Of a DNA stretch of 36,657 nt, positions 31,987 to 36,657 are shown piece after piece (the stretch's first letter is position 1; each line of letters starts with the position of its first letter). The DNA comes from Verrucomicrobiota bacterium. Its GTDB lineage: Bacteria; Verrucomicrobiota; Verrucomicrobiia; Limisphaerales; SIBE01. The notes under the pieces are model-generated. The model was not told where the DNA came from, did not search any database, and saw only the letters and a program-made list of their open reading frames with translations. The stretch lies in assembly GCA_021733945.1 (NCBI GenBank), contig JAIPJX010000038.1, positions 1 to 36,657 of the forward strand, in the 5' to 3' direction. A program made the position numbers and the translations under genes.

Positions 31987-33114
31987 ATGAGTAAAGCGTC
32001 GAGCACGGCGTCCGAGTTTGGTTCCGGATTCCTCGAAATTTCCGAAAAAGGTTTTGGATTCCTGCGGTCTAGGGAAAATCATTTCCAACCAAAACCGACT
32101 GACATCTTTGTCACTCCGGACACAATCAAGAAGAATTTTCTCCGCGAGGGATGTCTGGTTGGAGGCCCCACCCAACCTCCCCACCGGGGCACCAGTCCGC
32201 AACTGCGCGAGGTGGAGATGGTCAATGAAATGCCTTTCTCCGATTACACCAAGGCAATGCGCTTCGAGAATCTCACCACGATTGATCCGTTCGAAAAGTT
32301 CAATCTCGAGACCTCTCCCGACGAACTGGAAACCCGCATCATTGATCTGGTCACCCCGATCGGCAAGGGCACCCGCGGATTGATCGTGGCTCCGCCGCGG
32401 ACCGGTAAAACCACCATCCTCAAGCAGATCGCAAATGCGGTGACCATCAATCACCCCGAGGTGCATGTGATGGTCCTTCTGATCGACGAGCGCCCCGAGG
32501 AAGTCACCGATTTCCAGCGCTCCGTGAAAGCCGAAGTCGTCGCCTCGTCCAATGACATGGACCTCGAGACGCATGTGCGCCTTTCCCGGTTCATGATCGA
32601 ACGTTGCCGCCGCATGGTCGAGTCCGGCCGCGACATTTTTGTTCTTCTGGATTCCATCACCCGCGTGGCCCGCGCCTACAACAGCGTGCACGGGGGCAGC
32701 GGCCGCACCATGACGGGCGGCGTCGATGCCCGTGCTCTCGAAATGCCGCGCAAGATGTTCGCCTCGGCCCGCAAGATTGAGGAAGGGGGCTCCCTCACCA
32801 TTCTCGCAACCGCTTTGGTGGATACGGGTTCCCGGATGGATGAACTGATCTTCCAGGAGTTCAAGGGCACGGGCAACATGGAGCTGATCCTTGATCGCAA
32901 ACTTTCCGACCGACGCCTGTTCCCTGCCATTGACATTCCCAAGAGCGGCACACGCAAGGAGGAAAAACTTTTTGATCCCAAGCACATCGAGGCCATCCGA
33001 AAACTCCGGCGCACGATGGTCGATCTGAATCCCATCGAGGCAATGGAGACCCTGAACGCGGCTCTCAAGAAGCAGAAGACCAACGAAGAGCTGCTCACCA
33101 AACTTGCGGGATAA
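31987..33114 (+). CDS. rho: Transcription termination factor Rho, short form
   Basis: A 375-residue protein. Residues about 10-60 are the OB/cold-shock-like RNA-binding domain (GFLEISEKGFGFLRS). The ATPase domain carries Walker A APPRTGKT (135-142), VLLIDERPEEVTDF, the TGGVDARALEMPRKMFASARKIEEGG region and the FKGTGNMELILDRKLSDRR secondary-site segment. E. coli Rho has 419 residues. This one lacks the N-terminal helical Rho_N extension, since an in-frame stop (31972-31974) precedes the ATG. It would load on RNA and terminate transcription. The 93-bp gap to the WYL gene holds a hairpin at 33129-33170. Confidence 0.96.
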   Translation: MSKASSTASEFGSGFLEISEKGFGFLRSRENHFQPKPTDIFVTPDTIKKNFLREGCLVGGPTQPPHRGTSPQLREVEMVNEMPFSDYTKAMRFENLTTIDPFEKFNLETSPDELETRIIDLVTPIGKGTRGLIVAPPRTGKTTILKQIANAVTINHPEVHVMVLLIDERPEEVTDFQRSVKAEVVASSNDMDLETHVRLSRFMIERCRRMVESGRDIFVLLDSITRVARAYNSVHGGSGRTMTGGVDARALEMPRKMFASARKIEEGGSLTILATALVDTGSRMDELIFQEFKGTGNMELILDRKLSDRRLFPAIDIPKSGTRKEEKLFDPKHIEAIRKLRRTMVDLNPIEAMETLNAALKKQKTNEELLTKLAG

Positions 33115-33128
33115 AAACCGGCTTCCAT

Positions 33129-33170
33129 TCGAAGCGGACCTGACTTCCTCGGGAACCGCCGCCGCTTCGA
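33129..33170 (+). other. Stem-loop after rho
   Basis: TCGAAGCGG (33129-33137) pairs with CCGCTTCGA (33162-33170) across a 24-base loop, 15 bases after the rho stop. No T-run follows. It could be a weak terminator or a 3'-end structure, separating rho from the WYL gene. Confidence 0.4.
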
Positions 33171-33207
33171 GAGCTCTCAGTCAAACAGCCCTCGCCGATT
33201 CCCTTCC

Positions 33208-34212
33208 ATGAACCCAGGGGACAGGGCTCCGCTCCCGGCCACGCGTCCTCCTCTGGAACGAATGCTGCGCATTCACCAGCGGGTTCAATCAGGCAAATTT
33301 CCAAACGCATCCACACTCGCCCGCGAGCTGGAGGTGAGCACCAAGTCGATTCAGCGCGATTTGGAGTTCATGCGCGACCGTCTCGGTCTGCCACTCGAAT
33401 ACGACGGACGGCGTTTTGGTTACTTCTACACCGGGGAGGTCAAATCATTCCCCACCCTCCAGATCACCGAGGGCGAACTGATCGCCCTGCTCGTCGCTGA
33501 AAAAGCGCTCCAGCAATACCGTGGCACCAGCTTTGAACGCCCCATCGTCAGCGCGCTGAAGAAGATGGCCTCCTCTCTGCCGGACACCATCTCACTGAAT
33601 CTGGCCGAGTGGGATCAGAGCATCTCCTTCCGCACCAGCGCAGAGCCGGTCCTTGACATTGAAACCTTCGACGCACTGACACGGGCCGCCGCCCGACACG
33701 AGCAACTCGTCATTCACTACCGGAAGCCGGGCCGCAAGACCGTCGAGGCCAGAACGGTCGACCCCTACCACCTGGCCAACGTGAACGGCGAATGGTTCCT
33801 GTTCGGGTTCGACCACCTTCGCAACGACATCCGCACCTTCGCGCCAGCCCGGATTGTCCGGGTGGAACCGACGGGCACCCGGTTCAAGAAGCCTCAAAAC
33901 TTCTCGCTGCAGGAACGCCTCAGCCAGAGTTTCGGCGTGCATTCCGGCACCGGCCAGCACGACATCCGAATCCGGTTCAGTGGATTCGTTGCAGACTATA
34001 TCCGGGAAAAAAAATGGCACCCCTCCCAACGCCTGATCGAACTGGAGGACGGCGGCGTCGAACTTCGACTCCAACTTTCCAGTCTGGTCGAAATCCAGCG
34101 CTGGGTTCTCACCTGGGGAGGCAGCGCCGTCGTGATCGCCCCGCCTGAACTCGCACGCGACGTCCGCGCAGCGGCCAGGGCCATCCTGAAACAACACCCC
34201 GCCAGCGACTGA
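33208..34212 (+). CDS. WYL-domain HTH transcriptional regulator
   Basis: A 334-residue protein. The N-terminal HTH (about 12-70: FPNASTLARELEVSTKSIQRDLEFMRDRLGLPLEYD) is of the YafY/DeoR type. The WYL domain (about 150-230) contains the core VNGEWFLFGFDHLRNDIRTFAPARI, and a C-terminal WCX-like extension follows. WYL regulators sense nucleic acid or small ligands. In Actinobacteria, PafB and PafC are WYL regulators encoded with the pupylation genes and control the DNA-damage response. Here the gene lies 70 bp upstream of the proteasomal ATPase on the same strand, so a similar relation is possible but unproven. Confidence 0.88.
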   Translation: MNPGDRAPLPATRPPLERMLRIHQRVQSGKFPNASTLARELEVSTKSIQRDLEFMRDRLGLPLEYDGRRFGYFYTGEVKSFPTLQITEGELIALLVAEKALQQYRGTSFERPIVSALKKMASSLPDTISLNLAEWDQSISFRTSAEPVLDIETFDALTRAAARHEQLVIHYRKPGRKTVEARTVDPYHLANVNGEWFLFGFDHLRNDIRTFAPARIVRVEPTGTRFKKPQNFSLQERLSQSFGVHSGTGQHDIRIRFSGFVADYIREKKWHPSQRLIELEDGGVELRLQLSSLVEIQRWVLTWGGSAVVIAPPELARDVRAAARAILKQHPASD

Positions 34213-34282
34213 GTCCTCCCGGCAAACACGGGAAAAGGAACTCCCGGTTTGCAAATCCGAAAGGTCGGGTTAAGTTCCACGC

Positions 34283-35992
34283 ATGGCTGAGCCGAAGAAA
34301 AGGTCGGCCCCACACCAGGGGGAAACCACAAAGGCAAACGGAGGCAATCCGCCTCTGGAGCCGCTCACCGGGCATCTGTCCCGGGAAACATTGGAATCGC
34401 TCTCGACCCTGCAGTTCATCGACCTGATTGCCACGCGCCTTCCACCGCGCCACCTGTCGGTTCAAGACCTGTTCTACCTGCGTGACCGCATTGCGGACCT
34501 GGAAGAAACCCACGCCCAGGCCCAGGAGGCGCTGATCCAACTGGATGCCATCGTTGAGAAACTCCGGGCACCGGCCTTCCGCGTAGGCACCTTCCTCATG
34601 CCGGTCGATCCGGACCTGGCCCACGTCTGCCTGGCAGGCAGTGACTACGTGTGTCGCATTGATCCTGGCATTCCGACCGGAGCGCTTCAGGTGGGCCAGC
34701 GCGTGCTCTGCAACGAAGCCTTCGCAATCGTCCAGTCCCTTGGGTACGAAAAAAATGGCCCCATCGTCCGTGTCGACGAACTGCTCTCGGAGGGACGCCT
34801 GCGCATCGGCCAGGAAACCGGGCTGGCACCCCTGATCCTGGTCCGTTCGGCCCTGCTGGCCAAGGAAAAGATCAAACCAGGAATGGAGGTGCGCCTCGAC
34901 GGCAACCAACGGGTTGCCTTGGAGGTCGTGGGAAACGGCAAACGAATCGATCGATCGCTGGAGACCGTGACCGAACTGCCCTGGGAGTCCATCGGCGGCC
35001 AGGATCAGGCCGTGCAGGCGATCCGGGACACCATTGAACTGCCCTTCGTGCACCGCGCCCTGTATCAGCGGTTCGATCATTCCATTCCCAAGGGCTTCCT
35101 GCTCTACGGCCCGCCGGGCTGCGGCAAGACAATGCTCGGGAAAGCCACCGCCTACAATTTGAGACAACAGGTGCGGCGCCACACACGCATCGATCGCGAG
35201 GAGTTTTTCCTCCATATCCAGGGCCCCGAGATCCTCAACATGTGGGTCGGCGAATCGGAGCGCCAGGTCCGCGATCTTTTCGCTCAGTGCCGCGAACAGG
35301 CTGCCGAAGGAGCCCTTGCCTTTCTATTCATCGACGAAGCCGAATCGATTCTCAGCACCCGACGGGCCGGCCGCTACCAGAGCGTGCTCAGCACGCTGGT
35401 CCCGATGTTCTGCACGGAAATGGACGGATTGGAACCGCTCCAGAACGTCGTGGTCATCCTCGCCTCCAACCGGGCGGATCTGATCGATCCCGCGATCCTC
35501 CGCCCCGGGCGCATCGATCGCAAGATCAAGGTGCACCGGCCCGACCGTGACGGGGTGCGCCGGATTTTCGAAATTTACCTGCGAGACCAGTTGCCTCTGG
35601 CAGAAAGCAGCGCCGCCCTGGCCCAGGCCGCAACGGACGCACTGTTTGCCCGCACGGACGAGAACCAGTTTCTCGAAGTCCTGTATCGCAGCGGCCGGCG
35701 CGAGGTGCTCCACCGCGGCGATCTGGTGAGCGGAGCCATTGTCGCGGCCATTGTGGAACGGGCCAAGAGCCTGGCCATCCGGCGCTCCATCCAGACCTCG
35801 GCCGAAACAGACATCACCCGCGAAGATCTCATCCAGGCGTTCGAGATGGAGTATGCGGAAAACGATCTGTTCCCTACCGGCGACATCACCGAGGACTGGT
35901 TGAAGCTGACCGACCTTGATCCCGACAACGTCATCCGGCTCGGCCCCATCCGCAACCCGGCCCGCAACCACCCGGGTCGGCGCATCATCTGA
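34283..35992 (+). CDS. arc: Proteasome-associated AAA+ ATPase, ARC/Mpa type
   Basis: A 569-residue protein. A disordered N-terminus (1-50) is followed by a coiled coil (about 58-95, LSVQDLFYLRDRIADLEETH) that in Mpa binds the modifier. OB domains follow (about 98-225), then one AAA+ module: Walker A GPPGCGKT (276-283), pore loop WVG (321-323) in LNMWVGESERQVRDLF, Walker B FLFIDE (347-352), sensor SNR (395-397), and arginine fingers in LRPGRIDRK. The Mpa-typical segment NQFLEVLYRSGRREVLHRGDLVSGAIVAAIVERAK and YAENDLF...EDW also align. It would unfold tagged proteins and thread them into a 20S protease. The C-terminus is HPGRRII without the QYL tail of actinobacterial Mpa. The dop gene follows 56 bp downstream. 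Confidence 0.93.
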   Translation: MAEPKKRSAPHQGETTKANGGNPPLEPLTGHLSRETLESLSTLQFIDLIATRLPPRHLSVQDLFYLRDRIADLEETHAQAQEALIQLDAIVEKLRAPAFRVGTFLMPVDPDLAHVCLAGSDYVCRIDPGIPTGALQVGQRVLCNEAFAIVQSLGYEKNGPIVRVDELLSEGRLRIGQETGLAPLILVRSALLAKEKIKPGMEVRLDGNQRVALEVVGNGKRIDRSLETVTELPWESIGGQDQAVQAIRDTIELPFVHRALYQRFDHSIPKGFLLYGPPGCGKTMLGKATAYNLRQQVRRHTRIDREEFFLHIQGPEILNMWVGESERQVRDLFAQCREQAAEGALAFLFIDEAESILSTRRAGRYQSVLSTLVPMFCTEMDGLEPLQNVVVILASNRADLIDPAILRPGRIDRKIKVHRPDRDGVRRIFEIYLRDQLPLAESSAALAQAATDALFARTDENQFLEVLYRSGRREVLHRGDLVSGAIVAAIVERAKSLAIRRSIQTSAETDITREDLIQAFEMEYAENDLFPTGDITEDWLKLTDLDPDNVIRLGPIRNPARNHPGRRII

Positions 35993-35995
35993 ACC

Positions 35996-36052
35996 ATGCA
36001 CCGGCCGCAAACCAACCCGCACCGTGCCGCCAAAATCGCCACCCGCGCATGA
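35996..36052 (+). other. 18-codon reading frame overlapping the dop start
   Basis: ATG at 35996 opens a frame of 18 codons (MHRPQTNPHRAAKIATRA) that ends in TGA at 36050-36052, overlapping the dop ATG at 36049 as ATGA. It fills the ARC-dop gap exactly. Such overlaps support translational coupling. The peptide has no recognisable homology and may be chance. Confidence 0.3.
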
Positions 36053-36657
36053 GTTCCCAGGTCATTCAGTTCGGGCTTGAAACCGAGTTCGGCATCGCTC
36101 TGGACGGGGACGCCGAAGTGGACGTGGTGGCGGAATCGATTGCTCTGGTTCGCAGCGCCACCCAACCCGGAGTGCCCATGCGCTGGGATTACGGGAGCGA
36201 GGACCCGCATCGGGACATGCGCGGTTTTCGGGTGCACGAACTCCGCCAGGACACCGACGAAAGCGGCTACGCCGCGAGGGACTCGGAACGGGAACTCAGT
36301 TTCGTGGAAATCAAGAGTGACCTGGTTCTGGGCAACGGCGCGCGGTTTTACAACGATCACGCGCACCCGGAGTACTGCACTCCCGAATGCCAGTCCATTT
36401 CCGACCTGATCGCGCACGACCGGGCCGGCGAACGCCTCGCCATGACCAGCGCCAGGCACCTGTCCGACGAACGATCCCGACTGGTGCGACTCTATAAGAA
36501 CAACACGGATTTTCTGGGGCACAGCTACGGTTGCCACGAAAACTACCTGCTCCCGCGCTCCCTGCCATGGCAGACGCTCACCTCCGCCATCGAGTCCTTT
36601 CTGGTGACACGCCAGATCTACGCCGGGGCCGGGAAATTCGCCATCGAGGCCGAGGAC
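36049..36657 (+). CDS. dop: Dop-type Pup/UBact deamidase-depupylase, N-terminal part (cut by window edge)
   Basis: The first 203 residues, with no stop before the window edge. GLETEFGI (9-16) carries the Mg-binding ExE. RWDYGSEDPHRDMRGF (45-60) is the Dop-specific stretch ahead of the Dop loop. NGARFYNDHAHPEYCTPEC contains the catalytic Asp (about 103). RLYKNNTDFLGHSYGCHENYL and VTRQIYAGAGKF complete the glutamine-synthetase-like carboxylate-amine ligase fold. The RWDY...RGF block is found in Dop and not in the PafA ligase, so Dop is the better call. The region between RGF and NGAR is longer than in mycobacterial Dop. Dop deamidates the C-terminal Gln of the modifier and also removes the tag. 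The modifier should follow downstream. Confidence 0.9.
   Translation, partial: MSSQVIQFGLETEFGIALDGDAEVDVVAESIALVRSATQPGVPMRWDYGSEDPHRDMRGFRVHELRQDTDESGYAARDSERELSFVEIKSDLVLGNGARFYNDHAHPEYCTPECQSISDLIAHDRAGERLAMTSARHLSDERSRLVRLYKNNTDFLGHSYGCHENYLLPRSLPWQTLTSAIESFLVTRQIYAGAGKFAIEAED

Follow-up and report, generated by a model that had tools for sequence, protein, structure and literature searches.

The contig JAIPJX010000038.1 of a Verrucomicrobiota bacterium (assembly GCA_021733945.1; its 36,657 nucleotides analyzed in full are hereinafter called the window) closes on the first genes of what is almost certainly a complete and intact UBact protein-tagging and proteasome operon, whose remaining genes open another contig of the same assembly (C70). 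Read across the two contigs, the gene order is ARC ATPase, Dop, UBact (the small modifier), PrcB (20S beta), PrcA (20S alpha) and PafA, and the last four all fit into the 3.1 kb that follow the end of dop. An initial annotation, made from the letters of the window, had placed three co-directional genes at its right end (a WYL regulator, an ARC/Mpa-type ATPase and a Dop homologue), read them as a locus of the UBact/Pup type, and expected a modifier, both 20S subunits and PafA just downstream, with the modifier outside the window. Domain profiles bear out the three genes at levels that rule out a fortuitous resemblance, the UBact variant is the one that PF20513 and NF033388 single out, and all four expected genes are encoded on C70, the window itself holding no modifier. 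The finding is real, and its core was correctly read; the system as such is ordinary, and the value lies in its completeness and in a docking difference described below, as every gene of an almost unstudied ubiquitin-like system has been located in an example that could be expressed and tested.

Reading dop across two contigs

The window's own assembly (5.4 Mb in 225 contigs, about 90% complete) was read past the window edge by searching its contigs with the Pup_ligase family profile, which matched in three places: the window end (profile positions 3-179), the start of C70 (184-440) and, as a full copy, further along C70. The dop gene is truncated by the window end, and the two contig ends have GGAC in common (the window closes with GAGGAC and C70 opens with GGACCGC), the reading frame of the merged gene across the junction being AIEAEDRFVSHGF. 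When the junction was aligned with 22 other Dops, plain concatenation carried exactly one extra Asp, so that the merged Dop (506 aa) lacks no residue, and the window end and the C70 start are, judging from this sequence agreement, very likely one continuous dop.

UBact starts 13 bases after the Dop stop codon, and prcB, prcA and pafA each overlap the preceding gene by four bases (ATGA), overlaps that suggest a single operon with translational coupling. A simple scan of 33050-36100 for promoters and terminators found nothing resembling a promoter, and its terminator matches, all on the opposite strand, were about as many as chance would give.

The window alone, holding no modifier, protease subunit or ligase, might suggest paralogues of pupylation enzymes that have been orphaned or are decaying, retained for some other use without a modifier or protease, and a single Dop/PafA homologue has indeed been reported in Planctomycetes (PMC7947786); however, the modifier, PrcB, PrcA and PafA come next on C70, with four-base overlaps and their active sites intact, and the gene set is conserved across many genomes, which makes this explanation scarcely credible and, because of the four genes on C70, already refuted unless the contig join is wrong. 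The initial annotation had itself named the absence of these parts within about 10 kb, or the loss of active-site residues, as what would speak against it; both were looked for, and the parts are in place, with the residues of PrcB, Dop, PafA and ARC intact.

The modifier and its enzymes

The modifier is a protein of 56 aa (MPDQSRKTRPTTPRPSGGGDGPSSPKVDKPNVDELLKRMRKVDPDQAKRYRQRTGQ) with the C-terminus RQRTGQ, and it scores 82 bits against NF033388 (cut-off 35) and 83.2 bits against PF20513 (cut-off 27.8). The comparison extended to 58 close relatives from the same order and to 388 genomes sampled throughout the phylum. PF05639, the model for Pup, had no match in the window's assembly and no credible one in the 388 genomes; as PF20513 matches and PF05639 finds nothing in this assembly, the modifier is UBact rather than Pup. 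Among 82 distinct UBact modifiers, 58 end in RQRTGQ and 24 in RQRTGE, with no other ending seen.

Two other matches were set aside. The lone PF05639 match in the phylum (G118; 28.8 bits, within a 963-aa frame) was judged to be due to chance, and a second UBact match in G024 (L057, contig C125; 24.9 bits, in a 1044-aa frame) belongs to a cytochrome-c-like protein in which KAMKHVDPDLA occurs by chance. The UBact start (MPDQ.QKTRP; C70 930-960 and its counterparts in relatives) and the Gly-rich stretch are strongly conserved, and this N-terminal conservation exceeds what would be expected of a merely unstructured threading segment.

The Dop part within the window (203 residues) matches Pup_ligase at 197.5 bits and favors the Dop model TIGR03688 (163 bits) over the PafA model TIGR03686 (118 bits), and E for the protein once joined is 4e-99 with Acidothermus Dop (4b0r), as against 6.1e-64 with the nearest PafA. 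It keeps the RWDYGSEDPHRDMRGF Dop segment, and its catalytic Asp103, in NGARFYNDHAHPEY, is aligned with the Asp of NGARLYVDHAHPEY in 4b0r, so that the Dop call of the initial annotation holds. The second enzyme is matched by TIGR03686 over residues 3-456 and is without the Dop-loop segment, its Asp67 aligning with the catalytic Asp.

The ARC ATPase and the 20S core

ARC matches the proteasome ATPase model TIGR03689 at E=1.2e-124 and contains the Pfam proteasomal OB domains (OB_N and OB_C) together with an AAA domain; Mycobacterium tuberculosis Mpa is its closest solved relative whether sequences (E about 2e-90) or folds (7pxc, Foldseek E=9e-37) are compared, in agreement with the earlier ATPase call. 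An AlphaFold2 model was built with 25 aligned sequences, and its long N-terminal helix (residues 59-95; pLDDT mostly about 75-85, dropping to 53 near residues 91-100) would be the expected coiled coil for modifier binding. The domains of this model are loosely placed, which explains its poor global TM of 0.28 to Mpa (pTM 0.52), and its domain content alone was used. Pore loop 1 reads WVG in 43 of the 55 distinct ARCs and WLG in the other 12.

Aligned with mature Rhodococcus PrcB, the PrcB encoded here has Thr38 at residue 1, as well as equivalents of Asp17 and Lys33. PrcA is divergent, with no Pfam match and a TIGR03691 score of 46.8 bits (E=2.5e-12) that is below the cut-off; a profile made from 22 PrcA orthologues retrieves actinobacterial alpha subunits at E of about 1e-20. 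Within the PrcB propeptide (C70 1097-1207 and relatives), a GDF(L/V/F).LL motif is conserved and the remainder is variable; the motif may have a role in assembly.

Docking of ARC on the 20S core

In mycobacteria, the C-terminal GQYL of Mpa docks on the 20S core, its Tyr contacting PrcA Arg26 and its carboxylate being able to pair with Lys52 (PMC8755798, PMC9599533, PMC11953334), and ANGDK, a loop of the beta-grasp hairpin, is in contact with the H0 helix of the 20S alpha ring (PMC9599533). The corresponding positions were counted in 55 distinct complete ARCs from UBact genomes and in 67 distinct PrcA proteins. No ARC has a Tyr among its last four residues (0/55), the final residue being Val in 30 and Ile in 25, after an invariant EDW block, and all 55 carry RSG followed by Arg or Lys in the hairpin. 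On the PrcA side, the Lys52 equivalent is Lys in 67/67, and the column aligned to M. tuberculosis Arg26 holds Arg in 3/67 and another residue, mostly Gly, in the remaining 64.

From these counts, we lean slightly towards a docking mode distinct from both HbYX and GQYL, in which the carboxylate of the Val/Ile tail would sit on the PrcA lysine that never varies, the arginine that contacts Tyr in mycobacteria having been lost, and the RSG[R/K] hairpin would grip the H0 helix. Such tyrosine-free docking seems reasonable, since archaeal cores offer a known case of tail binding without a tyrosine, that of PA26 (discussed in PMC10055539), and Cpa likewise needs none to bind the mycobacterial core (PMC6466877). 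What tells against it is that the Arg26 column may be off by one, the neighboring column being Lys or Arg in 47/67, and a basic side chain may therefore be found near the PrcA pocket despite the loss of the Arg. No mention of this difference in the ARC tail and the PrcA pocket was found in the literature searched, which excludes most subscription journals. The absence of the docking Tyr and the changed partner pocket set these proteasomes concretely apart from the mycobacterial one, and could allow docking rules to be tested in a second bacterial lineage.

Distribution and integrity of the system

UBact scores above the Pfam cut-off in 26 of the 58 close relatives, including all eight genomes of the window genome's family, and in 10 of the 388 genomes from across the phylum, i.e., its distribution is patchy. 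A scan of public genomes gave 148 UBact-encoding stretches; the 80 that were kept are mostly labelled Verrucomicrobia, with a few from Gemmatimonadetes, Latescibacterota, Omnitrophota and others (such labels are not always correct for metagenome bins), and the nearest of them comes from the record Verrucomicrobia bacterium casp150-mb.181.

The order ARC-Dop-UBact-PrcB-PrcA-PafA recurs in most relatives, and of the genomes tested for ARC, 9/9 with UBact had it and 0/7 without UBact did (leaving out a weaker AAA match of 210 bits in G011). Some loci seemingly lack PrcA and PafA (e.g., L060, L063, L117 and L123), and a reduced system at these was rejected by whole-genome searches: in the 17 genomes with split clusters, at least two Pup_ligase matches were found in 14 and one in three, and PrcA was found in 16/17, so these clusters are split rather than reduced. 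A loss of ARC beside other UBact loci (G012, G028, G029, G040 and G044; L138-L142) was likewise rejected, ARC being encoded at another place in the genome, alongside dop in three cases. The UBact operon is thus broken up in several lineages.

Relation to known systems

A UBact conjugation-proteasome system of Gram-negative bacteria was reportedly described by Lehmann et al. in 2017. Where PMC5751360 and PMC12751074 cite that work, the naming of UBact in 2017 is credited to Lehmann et al.; Pup/PafA-like genes in Verrucomicrobia had been noted in 2008 (PMC2588565), and Gram-negative 20S subunits, including those of Verrucomicrobia, were reported in 2017 (PMC5666114). With UBact, Pup/PafA-type and 20S genes in such phyla already reported, the present locus is a further member of the published UBact system and not its discovery: the modifier is far above both curated UBact cut-offs, homologues of Dop, PafA, 20S alpha/beta and ARC share one Gram-negative locus, and in a comparison made against curated models, no difference excluding membership was seen. 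The PrcA and PrcB subunits encoded here also fit, by description, the finding by Fuchs et al. (2017; PMC5666114) that PrcA/PrcB of armatimonadetes, nitrospirae and verrucomicrobia form a subcluster separate from the actinobacterial one.

With the actinobacterial Pup-proteasome system, the locus shares homologous enzymes and protease, a small modifier ending in Gly-Gln/Gly-Glu, and the same expected chemistry. Unlike it, however, the modifier here is UBact, with an invariant RQRTG[QE] end (TGQ, not GG[EQ]) and no PF05639 match, ARC is without the GQYL tail and has RSG[RK] in place of ANGDK in its hairpin, PrcA and ARC score below the curated cut-offs of the actinobacterial models, and no dedicated pafBC-like neighbor is seen.

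Proposed mechanism

The sequences show which genes are present and in what order, their homology, their intact active sites, their co-occurrence and the missing Tyr; from these, the biochemical steps and the docking mode are inferred, and a working model may be drawn by homology with pupylation. Dop would deamidate the C-terminal Gln of UBact (RQRTGQ) to Glu, and PafA, using ATP, would couple that Glu to lysines of target proteins; the UBact helix would then be bound by the N-terminal helices of hexameric ARC and its Gly-rich N-terminus threaded into the ARC pore, upon which ARC would unfold the target and feed it to a 20S core whose PrcA and PrcB rings are seven-fold, cleavage being carried out by PrcB Thr38 (Thr1 once a 37-residue propeptide is lost). 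Tags would also be removed by Dop. The docking of ARC on the alpha ring most likely differs from that in actinobacteria in needing no tyrosine: the C-terminal carboxylate of ARC would contact the invariant PrcA lysine, and its basic RSG[R/K] hairpin would contact the H0 helix.

It could also be that UBact tagging is mainly a regulatory, reversible mark, to which the proteasome is a secondary or independent partner. Some actinobacteria have kept pupylation without the proteasome, and the Dop present here would be able to remove tags; however, ARC and both 20S subunits share an operon with UBact, and the alpha subunit is still found in 16/17 of the tested genomes whose UBact cluster is split, so this alternative seems improbable. 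A few points nonetheless weigh against a complete operon serving degradation: the contig join is supported by a four-base overlap and protein continuity rather than by reads, the accessible literature yielded no experimental work on a UBact system, and, degradation being something we infer, tagging without it is possible.

Coordinates and neighboring genes

The mapped genes and residues are collected in Table 1.

Table 1. Genes of the UBact operon, its upstream neighbor and selected residues (window positions unless C70 is given).
Feature	Position	Strand	Remarks
WYL regulator, 334 aa	33208-34212	+	Pfam WYL 68.7 bits, WCX 64.4 bits, HTH_11 26.8 bits
arc, ARC/Mpa-type proteasomal AAA+ ATPase, 569 aa	34283..35992	+	first gene of UBact operon
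ARC long N-terminal helix, residues 59-95	34457..34567	+	AlphaFold2 model; aligned with Mpa coiled-coil region
ARC Walker A GPPGCGKT, residues 276-283	35108..35131	+	invariant in 25 aligned ARCs
ARC pore loop 1 W-V-G, residues 321-323	35243..35251	+	aromatic-hydrophobic-Gly motif pulling substrate; aligned with F-V-G of Mpa
ARC beta-grasp hairpin loop R-S-G, residues 469-471	35687..35695	+	aligned with Mpa ANGDK
ARC C-terminal tail, residues 556-569	35948..35989	+	ends R-I-I, without penultimate Tyr; low-confidence/flexible in model
dop, first 203 codons, depupylase/deamidase-like	36049..36657	+	rest at C70 2-916; 506 aa joined
Dop catalytic Asp103	36355..36357	+	aligned with Asp of 4b0r
UBact, 56 aa	C70 930-1100		PF20513 and NF033388
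prcB, 20S beta	C70 1097-1870		
prcA, 20S alpha	C70 1867-2604		
pafA, ligase, 466 aa (C70 2601-3998)	C70 2601-4001		TIGR03686

Downstream of pafA, a sugar-type ABC transporter set (periplasmic binding protein, ATPase and permease) is encoded on the same strand (C70 4115-7829); no close homologue of it was found beside pafA in the relatives examined, and it is not part of the UBact system.

The WYL gene, on the same strand as arc and 70 bases upstream of it, was the one element of the initial annotation that did not survive as a member of the locus. It might be taken for the Gram-negative equivalent of PafBC, a regulator dedicated to the tagging operon, as it adjoins arc in all members of the window genome's family, PafBC (E=1.2e-12) is the closest of its solved relatives, and in actinobacteria pafBC lies next to pafA (PMC8223512). 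An orthologue is, however, present in 52/58 relatives, including many UBact-free ones (e.g., G054, 71% identical, and G032, 69% identical); it follows rho in the UBact-free G054, G015, G049 and G050, and many UBact-positive genomes do not have it close to arc (in G029 and G044, it is found by rho, away from arc). As the orthologue occurs in most UBact-negative relatives and is away from arc in many UBact-positive ones, the presence of WYL does not track that of UBact, and membership of the tagging locus is ruled out by its order-wide occurrence without UBact and its pairing with rho; a dedicated regulator is rather unlikely, and the resemblance to PafBC is what the shared WYL fold would give. 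The preferred reading is that the UBact operon in this family stands beside an older rho-WYL pair, of which the WYL gene is a bystander with no regulatory role indicated. A WYL gene beside arc should therefore not be called a regulator of the system from its position alone, which corrects a likely annotation error. In the window, rho and the WYL gene follow one another on the same strand at 31987-34212, and the pair recurs in several relatives with or without UBact.

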